A DNA stretch of 40,452 nt from an uncultured Pseudomonadota bacterium (GTDB lineage: Bacteria; Myxococcota_A; Polyangia; Nannocystales; Nannocystaceae). Location: positions 1-40,452 of the forward strand of contig CAJXVA010000022.1 of assembly GCA_913061055.1 (NCBI GenBank). Direction: 5' to 3'. The stretch's first letter is position 1. Every line of letters begins with the position of its first letter. The notes under the pieces were generated by a model. That model had not been told where the DNA came from. It saw only the letters and a list, made by a program, of their open reading frames with translations, and searched no databases. Position numbers and translations under genes: made by a program. Below, piece after piece: positions 24,984 through 34,442 of this stretch.

Positions 24984-26705
24984 ATGGCACACGCTTGGGA
25001 TCGCACGCTCGGCATCATGGCTGGGCTCGCACTGACCGGCTGCTACGCCGGAGCACAAATCGACGTCGAGACGGACGGGGCCAGCACTGCGCCCACCGCC
25101 TCCGGCGAATCTGGCGATACGACGGACGGCGAGGGCAGCGGGGGCACCGACGACCCCGATGTGCCGATGGCCGAATGCGACGGCATGGTCTTCGACCCCG
25201 GGCCGAACCTGGCTCGTCGTCTGACGGTGCTCGAGTATGGCAACACCGTCGAGGCGCTGCTTGGAGTCGACGTCCGGCCGGAGGCGACCGAGCAGCTCCC
25301 CCCCGAGCTTCGAGCCGACGGATTCACCAACACCTCCAGCGGCCTCATCACCACGCTTGGACACATCGAAGCGTATGACGCCCTCGCCTCCCTCGCGATC
25401 GAGCGCATGCCCGACCTCGCAGGTTTCGTGGGCGAGTACACCTCGTGCCAGGAGTTCTCTCCCGCGTGCGAGGCTGAGTTCGTCGAGCGCCTGGGTCTGC
25501 GAGCGTTCCGGCGCCCGCTGACCGAGGACGAGCGCGATGCCCTGGTCTCGGTGTTCGCCGCGGCGCAGGACGAAGACGAGACCTTCGCTCAGGGGGCGGG
25601 GCTGGTCATGCAGGCCATGATGCAGAGCCCGGCGTTCCTGTACCGGCTCGAGGACGAAGTCTCTGGAGATGGAGCTCGAGAACTCGGCGGGTACGCCCTG
25701 GCGACACGCCTGAGCTACTTGATCTGGGCCGGTCCCCCCGATACCGCGCTCCTCGACGCCGCCGGCAATGACGCGCTGCGAACCGACGCGGAGATCGAAG
25801 CTCAGGTCGACCGCATGTTGGCCTCGCCCGAGGCCCGCGACGCATCCGAAGCGTTTGTCGACGACTGGCTGAACCTCGCCCGCCTCAACGGTCTCCCCCG
25901 AGATCCAGAGCGGTTCCCCGACTGGACCACGGCGATCGCCGACGCCATGGTCGACGAGACCCACAGCTACTTCGGTGCGCTGGTCTGGGACGACGTCCGC
26001 CCGCTGATGGACCTGTTCATCGCGCAGGAAGCCTGGCTCACGCCCGAACTCGCGACGCACTACGGCTTGGAGCCCCAAGGCGAGGGCATCCAGCGCTACG
26101 ACATGAGCAACCAGCCCGAGCGCGGCGGTCTGCTGACCCAGGGCAGCATGCTCACCATCGGGGGCAACGAGAGCTCGATGGTCGCTCGCGGCCTGTTCGT
26201 GTTCGAGAGCGTGCTTTGCCAACATCCGGTGTCTCCACCGCCGGGGGTCGACACCACGCCCCCGGATATCGAACCAGGAAGCTCCCAGCGAGACATCTCG
26301 GAGGTGCGCACAACCGATGCGACCTGTGCCGGTTGCCACCTTCAGTTCGAGCCCATCTCTTGGGGCTTGGGCCGCTACCTGGCCGACGGAACGTTCGCCG
26401 ACGAGGATCACCTGGGCAACGCCCTGCGCGAGGACGGCTTCTTGCGCCTGCCGGGCTCGGCGGAGGAGTACCCGTACAACAACGCGGGCGAAATGATGAC
26501 GCTGTTGGCCGAGGCAGACGCCACGCGCGAATGCATGGCCAGCAAGACCACACAGTTCGCCATCGGACGAGCCCTCACGGGCAACGACGACTGCACGATG
26601 GAACAACTGCAAACGCGCTTTGCACAGAGCGACGGCACCTGGCGAGACCTCGTCGTCGCCATCGCGCTAAGCCCCGGCTTCCGGTCGGTGAGGGTGGAGG
26701 AGTAG
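24984..26705 (+). CDS. DUF1592/DUF1588-type CxxCH-containing lipoprotein
   Basis: The 573-residue protein begins MAHAWDRTLGIMAGLALTGC (lipobox LTGC). After a Ser/Gly/Asp linker come the modules seen in planctomycete and myxobacterial paralogues: DUF1587 (LARRLTVLEYGNTVEALLGV), DUF1595 (FVERLGLRAFRRPLTEDERD), DUF1592 (MQAMMQSPAFLYRLEDEVSG to WLNLARL), DUF1588 with the heme-binding motif CAGCH (TTDATCAGCHLQFEPISWGL) and DUF1585 (AGEMMTLLAEADATRECMAS, GRALTGNDDC). It is a lipid-anchored c-type cytochrome-like protein facing the periplasm or the surface. The Tat-exported DUF1552 protein follows two bases later and is its usual partner. Function is unknown, although the gene pair is widespread. 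A strong hairpin covers its ribosome binding site. Confidence 0.9.
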   Translation: MAHAWDRTLGIMAGLALTGCYAGAQIDVETDGASTAPTASGESGDTTDGEGSGGTDDPDVPMAECDGMVFDPGPNLARRLTVLEYGNTVEALLGVDVRPEATEQLPPELRADGFTNTSSGLITTLGHIEAYDALASLAIERMPDLAGFVGEYTSCQEFSPACEAEFVERLGLRAFRRPLTEDERDALVSVFAAAQDEDETFAQGAGLVMQAMMQSPAFLYRLEDEVSGDGARELGGYALATRLSYLIWAGPPDTALLDAAGNDALRTDAEIEAQVDRMLASPEARDASEAFVDDWLNLARLNGLPRDPERFPDWTTAIADAMVDETHSYFGALVWDDVRPLMDLFIAQEAWLTPELATHYGLEPQGEGIQRYDMSNQPERGGLLTQGSMLTIGGNESSMVARGLFVFESVLCQHPVSPPPGVDTTPPDIEPGSSQRDISEVRTTDATCAGCHLQFEPISWGLGRYLADGTFADEDHLGNALREDGFLRLPGSAEEYPYNNAGEMMTLLAEADATRECMASKTTQFAIGRALTGNDDCTMEQLQTRFAQSDGTWRDLVVAIALSPGFRSVRVEE

Positions 26706-26707
26706 AC

Positions 26708-28138
26708 ATGCGGTATCGAAAGGTCATGCCTCGGCGTACGTTCCTGCGGGGCGCCGGCAGCGTTGCAATCGGACTCCCCTTCCTTGGGGCCATGCGGAGC
26801 AGCTCCGTGTGGGGTGGTGGGGATGAAGCCCCCGCTCGCGCGTTCAACCTCTTCTTCGGGCTCGGCTGCCCGACACCGCTGCAGACCGAAGGGTTTGCGG
26901 GGCCCCTCGAGCCGCTCAGCGAAGTCATCGACAACCTGCTGATCGTCCGCGGCGTCGATCAAGTCCGCGGGGATATTCCCGGCGCCAACGCGCACTTCGA
27001 CGGTGCGACCGCCTCGTTCAACGCGATCCCCTCGGAGGGCGAAGTCCAAGCCGGAGGCCCGTCGATCGACCAGGTCATCCGTCGGCAGGTCTATCCCGAC
27101 GGACAGCCTCCCGGTGTGATTCCGACGCTTCTTGCCGGTACCTGGTTCCGGCGCAGCCGGCCCGGTCGGTACCTGCACTCGTGGAACGAGGACGGCTCGC
27201 CTGCCGACCTTCCCATCGAGCGCCCGGCCGCGCTGTTCGAGCGCATCTTCGGCAGCGGTCTTCCGGACACCAACGACCCGAACGAGGAGAAGCGACTGCG
27301 ACAGAAGCGCAGCATCCTCGACTCGGTGCTGCCGCAGTACCAACACATGATGAGCGATGCGAGCAACCTGGGGCAGGCGTCCCGGGCTCGCATCGCCGAC
27401 CACCTCGACAACATCCGGGAGCACGAGCAACGCGTCTTTGGCGAAGGGCCGGAGTGCGAGCTCCCGCCCCAGCCTCAGCCCTCCACGCTCCCGCACGAAG
27501 GTGCGGCCGACCCCGATGGCAGCGGCATCGACATCACGATCGAGGACCTGACCTCGGAGTGGCGACTGATGTCGGACCTCTACGCGCTGGCGGTGCAATG
27601 CGACGTGGTCCGCTTCGGTGGGATGACCTACCTGGCAGCGGGCGAGCGAATTCGGCTCACCGGCGACTATCTCTACCAGGGCGAGTTGCTGCACCAGTTC
27701 AACGACCAGGCGATCCACGGGACCGGTGGCTCGGCGGGTTGCAGCCACGAGTTCTGGCATCAGTTCAACGAGAACGCGGAGAACCTCCAGCTGCGGATGC
27801 ACGTGCACCTCAAGATGCGCGAGCTCGTCTACTTCATGAAGAAGCTCGACGATCCGACGTACGCCGACGCCAACGGGCAGTCCATCCTGCACAACGCTCT
27901 GGTCTCGATCTCGACCGAGTCCGGCGACGGCCGGCACAACGACATCATCCGAGAGCTCAGCGGAATCTTTCACGCATTCTCGCCCGCCGGCGGCCGGCTG
28001 CGTTCCGGGGAGATCGTCGATGCCAACGCCGAGGCCCTCGATGTCTACAACACTATCCTGCAGCAGGGCTTCGGCCTCGACTACAAGATGGGTCCCGCCG
28101 ATCGGCCCGTGAACGTCGTCGACGCGATCCTGCCGTAA
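26708..28138 (+). CDS. Tat-exported DUF1552 protein
   Basis: The 476-residue protein starts MRYRKVMPRRTFLRGAGSVA, a twin-arginine signal (RRTFLRG), so it folds in the cytoplasm before export, often a sign of a cofactor. The DUF1552 core follows: FFGLGCPTPLQTEG, LIVRGVDQVRGDIPGANAHF, GPSIDQVIRRQV and SDLYALAVQCDVVRFGGMTY. His-rich and Cys-containing segments (GTGGSAGCSHEFWHQFNENA, RMHVHLKMRELVYFM) could bind metal. The start is set by GGAGG six bases upstream and by the Tat signal; the frame is open further into the previous gene. The gap to the DUF1592 gene is two bases, so both are probably made together as one exported pair of unknown role. Confidence 0.9.
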   Translation: MRYRKVMPRRTFLRGAGSVAIGLPFLGAMRSSSVWGGGDEAPARAFNLFFGLGCPTPLQTEGFAGPLEPLSEVIDNLLIVRGVDQVRGDIPGANAHFDGATASFNAIPSEGEVQAGGPSIDQVIRRQVYPDGQPPGVIPTLLAGTWFRRSRPGRYLHSWNEDGSPADLPIERPAALFERIFGSGLPDTNDPNEEKRLRQKRSILDSVLPQYQHMMSDASNLGQASRARIADHLDNIREHEQRVFGEGPECELPPQPQPSTLPHEGAADPDGSGIDITIEDLTSEWRLMSDLYALAVQCDVVRFGGMTYLAAGERIRLTGDYLYQGELLHQFNDQAIHGTGGSAGCSHEFWHQFNENAENLQLRMHVHLKMRELVYFMKKLDDPTYADANGQSILHNALVSISTESGDGRHNDIIRELSGIFHAFSPAGGRLRSGEIVDANAEALDVYNTILQQGFGLDYKMGPADRPVNVVDAILP

Positions 28139-30470: not shown

Positions 30471-30524
30471 CCACCCGCCGAGCAGAAATCCTGCGTCCAC
30501 GCAGGACCTCGCTCGTAGGTGGGG
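30471..30524 (+). promoter_or_regulatory. Dyad and nested RBS pairing upstream of the ArsI-like gene
   Basis: CCTGCGT-CC-ACGCAGG (30490-30505) is a perfect 7-bp-arm dyad ending 21 bases before the ATG at 30527, a good size for a dimeric repressor such as an ArsR-type protein or for a transcription-control site. Around it CCACC (30471-30475) can pair with GGTGG (30518-30522), part of the Shine-Dalgarno GGTGGGG (30518-30524), so in RNA the dyad could be the inner hairpin of an RBS-hiding structure. Which of the two roles applies cannot be decided from the sequence. Confidence 0.45.
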
Positions 30525-30526
30525 AC

Positions 30527-31006
30527 ATGACTCTCAGCCAACCCCGCGTCCATGTCGCTGTGGCCGTCTCGAATCTCGACCTCTCCGTCGCCTTCTACGA
30601 ACGCATGTTTGGACTGGCACCGGTCAAGAAGCGGCCGGGATATGCCAAGTTTGAGCTCAGCGAGCCCCGATTGAACTTCACCCTCAACGAGACGCCACAG
30701 GCGCGCGCGCCACAGAGCCCTGCCCACTACGGTATCGAGGTTCCGGCGCCGAGCGACGTTGCTGCGTTCGCGTTGCGCGTGCGAGGCGCGGGTCTCGAGG
30801 CTCGACCGGAGGACAACGTGACATGCTGCTACGCAGTGATGGACAAGATCTGGATGCGAGATCCGGACGGGCACGCGTGGGAGGTCTTTGCGATCACCGA
30901 GTCCGATGTGGACAGTGCTCGACCGGTCCAGACCGAGGCGAAGGTCGAGGAAACCAACGAAGCCGCGGCAGACGAGCCCTGCTGCGAACCCACGTGCTGC
31001 ACATGA
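30527..31006 (+). CDS. arsI: ArsI/CadI-family C-As lyase (VOC metalloenzyme)
   Basis: The 159-residue protein is one VOC fold. ArsI-type enzymes are Fe(II)-dependent dioxygenases that break the carbon-arsenic bond of trivalent methyl- or aryl-arsenicals. Metal ligands are in the expected places: His9 (RVHVAVAV), His67 (AHYGIEV) and Glu119 (HAWEVFA). The vicinal Cys pair that holds trivalent arsenic is C100-C101 in NVTCCYAVMDKIWMRDPDG, the hallmark of the family. The C-terminus adds a Cys-rich tail (EPCCEPTCCT), also seen in CadI-type members. A strong Shine-Dalgarno (GGTGGGG) sits two bases before the ATG. The gene overlaps the sigma-factor gene by ATGA, so the two are made together. Cadmium handling is the alternative role. 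Confidence 0.88.
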   Translation: MTLSQPRVHVAVAVSNLDLSVAFYERMFGLAPVKKRPGYAKFELSEPRLNFTLNETPQARAPQSPAHYGIEVPAPSDVAAFALRVRGAGLEARPEDNVTCCYAVMDKIWMRDPDGHAWEVFAITESDVDSARPVQTEAKVEETNEAAADEPCCEPTCCT

Positions 31007-31569
31007 GCCTCGAGCAACACCCTTGGACCTCCATCACGGGCGACCTGCGACGCTACATCGCGCGCAGGGTGCCTGCGGCGGAGGTCGAGGACGTCGTGCA
31101 GGACGTGTTGCTGCGGGTCGTCGCGTCCAAAGATGCCCTCGCCGAGGACCGCCCGCTGGCGCCCTGGGTGCGCACCGTCGCTCGGAACGCAGTCATCGAT
31201 CGACACCGAAAGCGCAGCGCCTCGCCCCCTCCCCCGGACCCTGCCGTCGATGCAGAAGGCCTGACGATCGAAGCCCAGTCCGAGGCCCAGCGTGCGCTGC
31301 TGGGTATCTGGCTGCGGGTGACCGTCGACGAGCTCCCCGAGCCCTACCGTGAGGCTGTGCACCGCGTCGACGTGCTTGGCGAGGCCCAGTCCGATGTCGC
31401 CGACGCGTTGCAGCTCCCGTACTCGACGATCAAGTCGCGGGTTCAGCGAGGCCGCGCCAAGCTTCGCGACTCGTTCTTCCGCTGTTGTGACGCCGAGCTC
31501 GACGCCCGGGGACGCATCGACAGCGTTCGGTCCCGCCAAGACTGTCCGTGCTGTGATCCGCAGGGCTAG
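31003..31569 (+). CDS. Sigma-70 family (SigZ/ECF-like) factor with Cys-rich C-terminal tail
   Basis: The 188-residue protein has sigma region 2 (about 13-75, DLRRYIARRVPAAEVEDVVQ then DVLLRVV and WVRTVARNAVIDRHRKR) and region 4 (about 100-158, VDELPEPYREAVHRVDVLGE to LPYSTIKSRVQRGRAKLRD, a helix-turn-helix). Instead of ending there it carries a tail with Cys161-Cys162 and Cys181, Cys183, Cys184 (RCCDAEL, DCPCCDPQG). Myxobacterial CorE-type sigma factors sense copper or cadmium through a Cys-rich C-terminal tail and need no anti-sigma factor. By analogy this one may sense arsenite or a soft metal directly. Its ATG overlaps the stop of the ArsI-like gene, so product ratio is coupled. No anti-sigma gene is adjacent. 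Confidence 0.85.
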   Translation: MSLEQHPWTSITGDLRRYIARRVPAAEVEDVVQDVLLRVVASKDALAEDRPLAPWVRTVARNAVIDRHRKRSASPPPPDPAVDAEGLTIEAQSEAQRALLGIWLRVTVDELPEPYREAVHRVDVLGEAQSDVADALQLPYSTIKSRVQRGRAKLRDSFFRCCDAELDARGRIDSVRSRQDCPCCDPQG

Positions 31570-31613: not shown

Positions 31614-34442
31614 GTGCACCCCGTGTCGGAGCTTCCGCAGGACGCCACCGCGATGTCTGGATCCGATCCGGACGCGACGCTGCTGCCCGATGGGGCCGCC
31701 AGTGGGCCGCAGGCGCCTCAGCTCGAGCCGGGAACGAAGATCAGCCGGTACACCTTGATCGAGCGGGTCGGCGCCGGTGCGATGGGTGTCGTGTTCTCGG
31801 CGTGGGACCCGAAGCTGGACCGCCGGATTGCTCTCAAGGTGGTTCAAGGCGACGGCTACGGGACCGCCGACACCACGGAGCGCTTCCGCGAAGCCAAAGC
31901 GATGGCGAAGCTGTCGCATCCGGGGGTCGTCACCATCTACGACGTCGGCGCGGCCGGTGACATGTTGTTCATCGCGATGGAGTATCTGCGTGGCGTGACG
32001 CTCGGGCGCTGGCGCATCGAGCATCCAGAAACCCCCTGGGCAGAGGTTGTTCAGCTCTACATGCACGCCGGTGCCGGCCTGGCGGCGGCGCACGACGCAG
32101 GACTGGTGCACCGCGACTTCAAGCCCGCCAACGTGATGGTGACCGAGGGCGGGCGGGTCACGGTGCTCGACTTCGGCCTCGCGAAGATGGACGGCGAGCG
32201 CCGGAAGTCCACGCGGGTTGGAACGCCGCGCTACATGGCCCCCGAGCAGCACCGGGGGTCCCCCACCGACGCCCGCAGCGACCAGTTCTCCTTTTGCGCG
32301 TCGCTGTACGAAGCGCTGTTCGACCAGCACCCCTTCGAAGGGGAAACCGCCTTCGAGTTCTCCCTGAGCGTGCAGGCGGGAGAGCTGAGACCCGTGCCGG
32401 CGAGTCACGACGTGCCGAGCCGGATCTGCGATGCGGTGACCCGCGGCTTATCGACGCAGCCCACCGATCGATTTGCGTCGATGGAAGAACTGCTTCGCGA
32501 GCTCGATCCCCTCGCTCCCTCCCGCCGGCGGCAGTGGAGCGTGTTGACCATCGGAGGCACGTTGGTCGTGGCGGCCGCGGCGGTGGTTGCAGGCGGTGGC
32601 GACGAGCCGTGCGCGGGGGCGAGCACCGCACTCGAAGAGGTTTGGAATGCCGAGGTCCGGGGGCAACTCGCGACCAGTCTCGAAGCCGCATCGATTCCCC
32701 CCCAACAGGTGCAGGCGGTCCAGGCTCGGCACGATGCGTTTGCGAAGTCGTGGATCGCCGCGCGCCAGGATGCGTGCGAAGCCGCGAAGGTTCGGCACGC
32801 GCAGAGCGAAGCCATCATGGAGCTCCGCTATCACTGCCTGGACACCCGGCTCGATGCCGTGGGATCTGGACTCGACAACCTCCTCAGCCCAGAGCCGGAC
32901 GCTCCGCTGAGCGCGGCCACCACGCTCGAGGAGCTCCCGACGCTCGGGCGATGCTCCGACCTCGAAGCGCTCCGTGCGGAGTACCCGCCCCCAGAAGACC
33001 CCAAGGCCCGTGCACGGGTGCGTGAGCTCGAGATCGAGTTGGCACCGTACGACGCAGTCCGGGCCAGCGACCCCGACCAAGCGAAAGCGGCCTTGGAGGC
33101 GATCTTGCTCGAGGCCGACGAGCTCGGCTACCCCCCATTGCGCGTCCACGCTCGAGCGACCTTGGGATCGCAACTGACCTTCATCGGGGAGGTCAACCGA
33201 GGAATCGGAATGCTCGAAGACGCCGTCATCCTGGGACTGCGCGCCAACGCAAGAGCAGCGACCGTGAGAGCGCTGTACGAACTGGCGCAGCAGAAAAGCA
33301 TCCACCAAAGGGATGCACAGGACGCCCTCTTCTTCGCCGGGGCCGCGATCGCGATCGCGAAGACATTCCCCGGTGGTGACTTCGCCCTCGACCAGGGATT
33401 CAAGGTGCGAATCGAGATCTTCGAACACGCCGCCCGCTTCGAGGAGGCCTACGCAGAAGCGAAGACCTTCCTCGAACGACTCGAGGTGGCCGGAGACCTC
33501 GAAGCCCCCCGCGGCATCGAACTCCGGGCTCGCATGGCGTCATACGCGACGCGCCTCGACCGACACGACGAGGCCGATTCCATTCTTGCCTCTCTCCTCG
33601 ACGAACCGCAGAAGGCGGAGGGAACCCTCGAGATCGCGCGCGCGTACACGGTTCGGGCGCACCTGAGAAAGGTCCGAGGCGAGACGGACGGCGCCGTGGC
33701 CGACCAGCTCCAGGCCCACAAAATCTACGCGCGGCTGCTTGGGCCCCGCCACCTCAACGCCGCGGGACGCCTGGGCGACATCGCCTTGGCCCTCGCCTAC
33801 GCGGACCGGCTTGACGAGTCCAGGAACTACGGAAAGAGAGCCATCGCCGCTCTCACCGTCGAGCATGATGGTCACGCTGACGCCGCACTCTCGCAGCTCT
33901 ACGAGAACCTGGGCTGGGTTGAACTCAACCTTGGAAACCTCGACGCTTCGATGACGGCGCTGGATCAGTCGGACCGTTGGGCCGCGGACCTGCGCGGTTC
34001 GGTCATGGCCCAGAAGAATTGGCGGGCCCGAGCGCGGGGTCGGATCGCCGAGGCTCGCGGCAACTTCGAAGAGGCCCGGGCTCTGTTCTCACGAGCGACC
34101 AAGACCACCACCAACGAGAAAAATCGACTGGCGTGCAGCGTCGGCCTCAACATCGCGGATCTCCACGCATCGGACACTCCGGCGGCACGCGCGGCTCTCG
34201 AGTCCGCGCTCGACCACCCAGAAACGAACAACATCGAAAAGGCTCGTGCCGCGTGGGGCCTCGCCTTGGCCGAAGCGCGTGATGGTCAAGCCGACACCGC
34301 GCGCCGTCATCTCGCCCGCGCCCGCAAGCACCTCGGCGAGGTGCCCTACGAGCGCATGCTGGAACGCAAGCTTCTCGCGCTCGAACAACAGCTCGACTCA
34401 GTTCCGCCGACGCCGAAGTCCGAAGAACCCCAAAAGGAGTAG
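31614..34442 (+). CDS. Transmembrane Ser/Thr protein kinase with TPR-like output region
   Basis: This 942-residue Hanks-type kinase starts at GTG 31614; GTG 31623 and ATG 31653 are alternatives. The kinase domain (about 45-300) has RVGAGAMGVVFSAWD as the glycine loop, Lys75 in RIALKVV, HRDFKPANV (about 166-174, Phe replacing the usual Leu), DFGLA (186) and GTPRYMAPEQ. A single helix (about 308-329, WSVLTIGGTLVVAAAAVVAG) puts the rest outside the cytoplasm. That part (about 335-930) is helical, with TPR-like pairs and four to six Cys near its start. The pattern is common among myxobacterial kinases. The last 45 bases overlap the convergent protease gene. The signal sensed and the targets are unknown. 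Confidence 0.9.
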   Translation: MHPVSELPQDATAMSGSDPDATLLPDGAASGPQAPQLEPGTKISRYTLIERVGAGAMGVVFSAWDPKLDRRIALKVVQGDGYGTADTTERFREAKAMAKLSHPGVVTIYDVGAAGDMLFIAMEYLRGVTLGRWRIEHPETPWAEVVQLYMHAGAGLAAAHDAGLVHRDFKPANVMVTEGGRVTVLDFGLAKMDGERRKSTRVGTPRYMAPEQHRGSPTDARSDQFSFCASLYEALFDQHPFEGETAFEFSLSVQAGELRPVPASHDVPSRICDAVTRGLSTQPTDRFASMEELLRELDPLAPSRRRQWSVLTIGGTLVVAAAAVVAGGGDEPCAGASTALEEVWNAEVRGQLATSLEAASIPPQQVQAVQARHDAFAKSWIAARQDACEAAKVRHAQSEAIMELRYHCLDTRLDAVGSGLDNLLSPEPDAPLSAATTLEELPTLGRCSDLEALRAEYPPPEDPKARARVRELEIELAPYDAVRASDPDQAKAALEAILLEADELGYPPLRVHARATLGSQLTFIGEVNRGIGMLEDAVILGLRANARAATVRALYELAQQKSIHQRDAQDALFFAGAAIAIAKTFPGGDFALDQGFKVRIEIFEHAARFEEAYAEAKTFLERLEVAGDLEAPRGIELRARMASYATRLDRHDEADSILASLLDEPQKAEGTLEIARAYTVRAHLRKVRGETDGAVADQLQAHKIYARLLGPRHLNAAGRLGDIALALAYADRLDESRNYGKRAIAALTVEHDGHADAALSQLYENLGWVELNLGNLDASMTALDQSDRWAADLRGSVMAQKNWRARARGRIAEARGNFEEARALFSRATKTTTNEKNRLACSVGLNIADLHASDTPAARAALESALDHPETNNIEKARAAWGLALAEARDGQADTARRHLARARKHLGEVPYERMLERKLLALEQQLDSVPPTPKSEEPQKE

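Follow-up and report, generated by a model that had tools for sequence, protein, structure and literature searches.

The window, the whole stretch of 40,452 nucleotides analyzed here, belongs to a 10.65-Mb genome that is 89% complete. It carries a gene for a predicted C-As lyase of the ArsI/CadI type, followed directly by a gene for a SigZ-like ECF sigma factor whose ATG at 31003 overlaps the ArsI stop (31006), the ATGA overlap recorded in the first reading of this sequence (the original prediction). A perfect dyad and a promoter-like pair of elements precede the two genes, and both proteins end in clustered cysteines (Table 1).

Table 1. Features of the two-gene operon and of the DNA before it
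Feature	Position in window	Strand	Basis or reading
Perfect dyad TCCTGCGTCCACGCAGGA, 8-bp arms around CC	30489..30506	.	Read as incidental to the -35 box
Predicted -35 element TGCGTCC of a SigZ-type promoter	30492..30498	+	
Predicted -10 element CGTA, 15 bases after the -35	30514..30517	+	
ArsI/CadI-type metalloenzyme gene, predicted C-As lyase, 159 aa	30527..31006	+	NF041414, 138.9 bits; 5C4P, E 5e-26
Codons of vicinal C100-C101, counterpart of T. curvata ArsI substrate thiols C98/C99	30824..30829	+	Alignment to 5C4P; PMC12607644
Cys-rich end of ArsI, C152-C153 to C157-C158 (CCEPTCC)	30980..31000	+	Sequence
SigZ-like ECF sigma factor gene, 188 aa, ATGA overlap with ArsI stop	31003..31569	+	Sequence, family models
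Cys tail of sigma, C161-C162 ... C181, C183, C184, predicted beta hairpin between; candidate sensor	31483..31554	+	

Elsewhere in the window, a PSD/PSCyt-type protein gene (DUF1592, DUF1588, and DUF1585) and then a DUF1552 gene occupy positions 24984-28138, and a Ser/Thr kinase with TPR repeats (31614-34442) begins 44 bases past the sigma stop.

The ArsI-Type Enzyme

The enzyme scores above the curated cut-off (116 bits) of the NCBIfam model ArsI_CadI_VOC (NF041414), a family whose name also takes in cadmium-linked members. Sequence comparison with the solved structure 5C4P aligns its H9, H67, E119, C100, C101, and K107 with T. curvata Q8, H65, E117, C98, C99, and K105, for which roles have been described (Q8 is His in Bacillus, and C98/C99 are the substrate thiols; PMC12607644). 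Because of the family score and this residue match, the protein is predicted to cleave C-As bonds. The vicinal cysteine pair and the CC..CC tail to which attention had been drawn in the lyase are both present.

Tails resembling CCxPxCC end ArsI, and stretches resembling CAPGCC start ArsM (arsenite methyltransferase), in many of the related loci described below; all three proteins, the sigma factor included, therefore bear Cys-rich ends. ArsI genes adjacent to SigZ-like genes score 86-157 bits against the ArsI model and others up to 198, a hint at a separate ArsI lineage.

A SigZ-Like Sigma Factor

Matches to PF04542 and PF08281 above the gathering scores identify sigma regions 2 and 4 only, as in an ECF sigma factor, and a fold search (E <= 0.001) returned 27 matches, to ECF sigma factors and their complexes, which are silent on the tail. 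The best family models are those of SigZ, TIGR02959 (128.2 bits) and NF007215 (129 bits); the protein nevertheless falls under both curated cut-offs (168.65 and 212, respectively) and is therefore called SigZ-like here. SigZ of B. subtilis is given simply as an ECF sigma factor, with no function, in PMC10141391. As first noted, no anti-sigma gene is recognizable beside the sigma gene: among seven other window ORFs scanned with Pfam, five have unrelated families, two have no family, and none has an anti-sigma family. Control by the kinase encoded downstream at 31614, in the manner of the ECF43 type, was considered and set aside; in that type the acidic DAED motif of sigma2 is replaced by uncharged residues (PMC8103513), whereas by eye the acidic motif of the window sigma is intact (EVED before the invariant Q33).

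The Cysteine Tail

The only cysteines of the sigma factor are the five after region 4 that had been pointed out originally (161, 162, 181, 183, and 184; spacing CC-X18-C-X-CC). The protein has 781 homologues at E <= 1e-10, and tail counts rest on the 120 matches listed: all 120 have CC within the last 75 residues, 114 have at least two more cysteines after it, and the first 140 residues hold a mean of 0.5 cysteines. It had been asked whether the tail cysteines vary freely among close homologues; in the 15 closest of those listed (at least 63% identity, the window copy included) the pattern is conserved, CC being present in every copy and C-x-C-C at the end in 14. In an alignment of 40 homologues C162 never varies, C161 and C183 each reach at least 90%, and the paired tail cysteines are kept in 40/40 ArsI-linked sigmas. 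A difference between ArsI- and ArsM-linked sigmas in cysteines within residues 9-15 after CC (4/40 vs 12/46) is too weak to build on.

An AlphaFold2 model of the sigma factor (mean pLDDT 86.5, pTM 0.50) places a beta hairpin (162-166 and 172-177) between the two Cys groups, which it would bring together. Sequence matches to solved structures stop at or before residue 164 (29 matches listed), so none of those listed offers a solved counterpart for the tail.

Clustered cysteines around a hairpin also fit a structural zinc site, and no ligand is given by the model. The sigma factor would then always be active once made, and the operon would be switched transcriptionally by another regulator. We regard this as improbable: tail lengths and end motifs differ among relatives (C-x-C-C, C-x-C, and C-x2-C), a variety better suited to ligand tuning than to one fixed site, and a constitutive sigma factor that drives its own promoter would never switch off.

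Linkage to Arsenic Genes

A draw of 282 Myxococcota genomes contained 45 sigma matches (at least 71 bits) and 43 weaker ECF matches. Thirty-eight of the former lie directly downstream of a gene for ArsI (12) or ArsM (26) and seven of neither; none of the 43 weaker matches in these genomes lies directly downstream of either gene (Fisher p 4e-18). The window's own family (29 genomes) yielded 20 sigma matches in 19 genomes, with ArsI upstream in 11, ArsM in five, and neither in the stretch examined in four. Another member of the genus (G282) likewise has an ArsI-sigma pair, its sigma being only 42% identical to that of the window. For four of the 17 other sigma clusters that come next in similarity, an ArsI match lies on a contig of exactly the same length (355793, 2836, 4997, and 7510 bases), which is suggestive, though no proof, of a single contig.

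The association extends over 80 further loci from many phyla that were gathered by sigma similarity alone. ArsI is encoded directly upstream in 18 of these and convergently just downstream in three; an ArsM gene immediately precedes the sigma gene in 15 and takes another place in the locus in 13. Altogether 49 of the 80, spanning 12 named phyla, carry ArsI or ArsM in the locus. The remaining 31 have neither within ~6 kb; 15 of them are from Pseudomonadota, and four (L107, L110, L111, and L112) have the lowest SigZ-profile scores and no tail. Ten further neighbours of sigma loci were annotated: ACR3 near the sigma gene in L093, ArsH in L061, ArsP_1 permeases in L091, L104, and L106, and products of other families, namely DUF2703 (L047 and L083), PIG-L (L078), ThuA (L057), and peptidase M50 (L083). 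Each of four full ArsM sequences checked scored above the ArsM cut-off. No count rests on all-against-all clustering of six-frame ORFs, in which shadow ORFs dominated, or on an improvised gene finder, which overlooked the sigma gene at 59 of 107 loci.

A quick tree covers 120 sigmas, the 123 distinct ones less three that were too short; 45 of its 117 inner branches are open. Partner changes on this tree number 12 for ArsI and 12 for ArsM, of which at least three are forced by the starred branches. Linkage that has been rebuilt several times points to a shared function rather than to one inherited neighbourhood.

Conservation of the ArsI neighbour, proposed at the outset as a check, thus holds in a wider form, the sigma type being tied to arsenic genes far beyond chance and the linkage to ArsI or ArsM spanning 12 phyla. 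The original prediction was to be given up if the tail cysteines varied freely among close homologues or if most relatives lacked arsenic genes; neither is the case, because the tail cysteines are conserved and the sigma genes are tied to arsenic genes.

A Promoter-Like Site before the Operons

By eye, TTGCGTCC...CCGTCTATAG keeps reappearing in the DNA ahead of 37 ArsI-sigma pairs, where nothing else is repeated in the same way, which tells further against a structural zinc site and a separate regulator. The consensus is TGC[GA]TCC-N15-CGTC; occurrences were counted with TGC[GA][TA]C[CTG]-N14-16-CGT[CA], and the patterns were composed after those upstream sequences had been seen. The counting pattern precedes 31 of the 37 ArsI-sigma pairs (reverse strand 0, shuffle mean 0.25) and 32 of 36 ArsM-sigma pairs (reverse strand 0, shuffle mean 0.46), or 32 of the 33 ArsM pairs with at least 200 bp of upstream sequence. 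Within the sigma-only loci it is found before 16 of 18 ArsI pairs and 13 of 15 ArsM pairs. Six of the 37 ArsI pairs lack the site under this pattern, and two of them (L124 and L138) show a looser variant by eye. Among 61 strict sites the spacer is 15 in 54, 16 in six, and 14 in one; the -10 element is CGTC in 60, the CGTA of the window being the sole exception.

The site is absent before the seven ArsI genes and the 20 ArsM genes examined that do not adjoin a SigZ-like gene, five of the 20 being from genomes with a SigZ-like gene elsewhere, and two related patterns searched directly upstream of the sigma gene gave no match in the 37 ArsI pairs. In the 13 loci whose ArsM gene is not directly upstream of the sigma gene, a stricter pattern stands before ArsM in 8 (reverse strand 1). 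A stricter pattern also precedes the sigma gene in 13 of the 86 loci without upstream ArsI (reverse strand 7, shuffle mean 0.5), and in many of these cases ArsM lies between the pattern and the sigma gene. Three Actinomycetota with convergent ArsI have one copy of the site before the sigma gene and another on the strand of ArsI, and three betaproteobacterial-type loci (L104, L106, and L108) have it before an ArsP_1-like permease.

Genes of other families also follow a SigZ-type site. A DUF2703 gene does so in L047 (5284-5916) and L083 (6663-7253), both by family, and in L074 by a look at the sequence, and may possibly be a new arsenic gene. A PIG-L deacetylase gene, like thiol-biosynthesis deacetylases, does so in three Actinomycetota loci, L078 (7226-7969), L100, and L105, with the family checked in L078. 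In the window only 9 bases (30518-30527) separate the predicted -10 element from the ArsI ATG, and likewise in L123 and L126; the arsI mRNA may therefore be leaderless.

The original prediction gave weight to a dyad with 7-bp arms 21 bases before the first ATG. A perfect dyad is indeed there, but it is better described with 8-bp arms, and its distance to the ATG at 30527 is 20 bases. The window contains 13 perfect inverted repeats of this arm length (loops of 0-6), so the dyad alone is weak evidence. Perfection and position would suit the operator of a separate regulator, such as an ArsR-type repressor, with the sigma factor a passenger. We consider that very improbable, as the dyad occurs in one of the 123 loci, that of the window, while the -35/-10 pair that it overlaps recurs. 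It takes in the -35 box together with some of the spacer and, being found in none of the other 122 sigma loci, does not appear to be an operator or an element of its own. Nor was the suggestion that it might mark other arsenic loci of the genome borne out: around the ACR3 and ArsP_1 genes, even the closest match differs from it at 5 of 18 positions.

The promoter-like site, and not the dyad, thus bears on the claim that the sigma factor switches on its own operon. Because the site is common to these operons, standing before most pairs, autoregulation is better supported than when first proposed; the window sigma is inferred to read TGC[GA]TCC-N15-CGTC and hence to regulate itself positively. 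A genome-wide regulon was considered and dropped, since in the window's genome the pattern shows no excess over its reversed control (57 vs 54 matches), and this operon may make up the whole regulon there. No same-strand site precedes the genome's ACR3 gene or its two ArsP_1 genes; each ArsP_1 locus has one loose match on the opposite strand.

Comparison with Known Systems

Bacterial arsenic control has mostly been described through ArsR repressors. In B. subtilis an ArsI-type lyase is likewise induced with an arsenic operon, arsR-arsI-arsB-arsC, which is under ArsR control (PMC12607644); in contrast, the regulator co-encoded in the window is a sigma factor. The arsM gene of Cupriavidus metallidurans is reported not to depend on RpoD (PMC9045368), which fits control by another sigma factor without showing it. 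In the open PMC papers searched, no arsenic role of SigZ came to light, nor any report that connects ArsI or ArsM with SigZ or a different ECF sigma factor; the 2021 ECF group descriptions could already record neighbours of this kind.

Precedents by analogy for a metal-sensing sigma tail are CorE and OrbS. CorE and CorE2 of Myxococcus xanthus (formerly ECF44, now ECF238) are also ECF sigma factors without an anti-sigma factor; their Cys-rich C-terminal tail is the metal sensor, and their targets are metal-resistance genes (PMC8999054; PMC9023288). The kinship with CorE that had been supposed did not hold up. CorE-like proteins have a CXC motif in the sigma2-sigma4 linker (PMC8999054), where the window sigma has no cysteine before residue 161; the CorE/CorE2 tail spacings are C-X4-C-X2-C-X-C or CC-X3-C-X2-C-X-C (PMC9023288) as against CC-X18-C-X-CC; the best family model is SigZ; and the partners of the window sigma type are arsenic genes. 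OrbS of Burkholderia cenocepacia similarly carries an on-board metal sensor in a Cys tail, but Fe(II) inhibits it (PMC9023288), whereas the window sigma is predicted to be activated by its ligand.

These precedents also raise the possibility that the same kind of autoregulating Cys tail responds chiefly to a different thiophilic ion (Cd, Zn, Cu, or Sb) and that the arsenic genes are one output among others of a soft-metal response. The ligands sensed by the CorE and CorE2 tails are Cu, or Cd and Zn (PMC8999054; PMC9023288), the enzyme family carries the name ArsI/CadI, and Cu/Zn-type efflux models additionally match two of the ArsP_1 permeases, below the cut-off. We nonetheless hold this to be unlikely, given that, in counts covering ArsI and ArsM and among the neighbours annotated, the recurring partners are arsenic-specific (ArsM, ArsI, and also ArsH and ACR3).

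A Proposed Arsenic Circuit

Since relatives of the window sigma stand beside arsenic genes in 12 phyla, often behind one site, the regulator likely senses arsenic and drives its own operon. We propose that the window holds a two-gene arsenic operon whose SigZ-like sigma factor probably turns on its own promoter once its Cys tail binds a trivalent arsenical, probably methylarsenite, the predicted target of the co-made ArsI. Low basal expression would supply some sigma factor; a trivalent arsenical would bridge the tail thiols (CC and C-x-C-C at the hairpin ends) and shift the tail relative to region 4; and the arsenical-bound sigma would engage RNA polymerase and read its own promoter, so that ArsI and sigma levels would climb together. 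As ArsI destroyed the methylated arsenic, the ligand would be lost and the loop would shut. No ArsM was detected in the window's genome at E <= 1e-40, and the genome has one ACR3 gene and two ArsP_1 genes; with no ArsM and one ACR3, methylarsenite would be of external origin, and ACR3 could serve as the exit for arsenite.

More tentatively, and with chances that we would put somewhat under even, the proposal may extend to SigZ-like proteins at large as one-protein arsenic-sensing sigma factors, in which a CC-hairpin-CxCC tail would bind As(III) (ArsM-linked) or methylarsenite (ArsI-linked) and the holoenzyme would read TGCRTCC-N15-CGTC. If true, this would reveal a widespread arsenic regulon, in at least twelve phyla, that needs no ArsR, and would give a function to the orphan SigZ type. 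A sigma factor with its own sensor, promoter code, and detoxifying partner would represent another logic of arsenic control; the promoter sequence opens this idea to direct testing, and the system could provide a compact part for organoarsenical biosensors.
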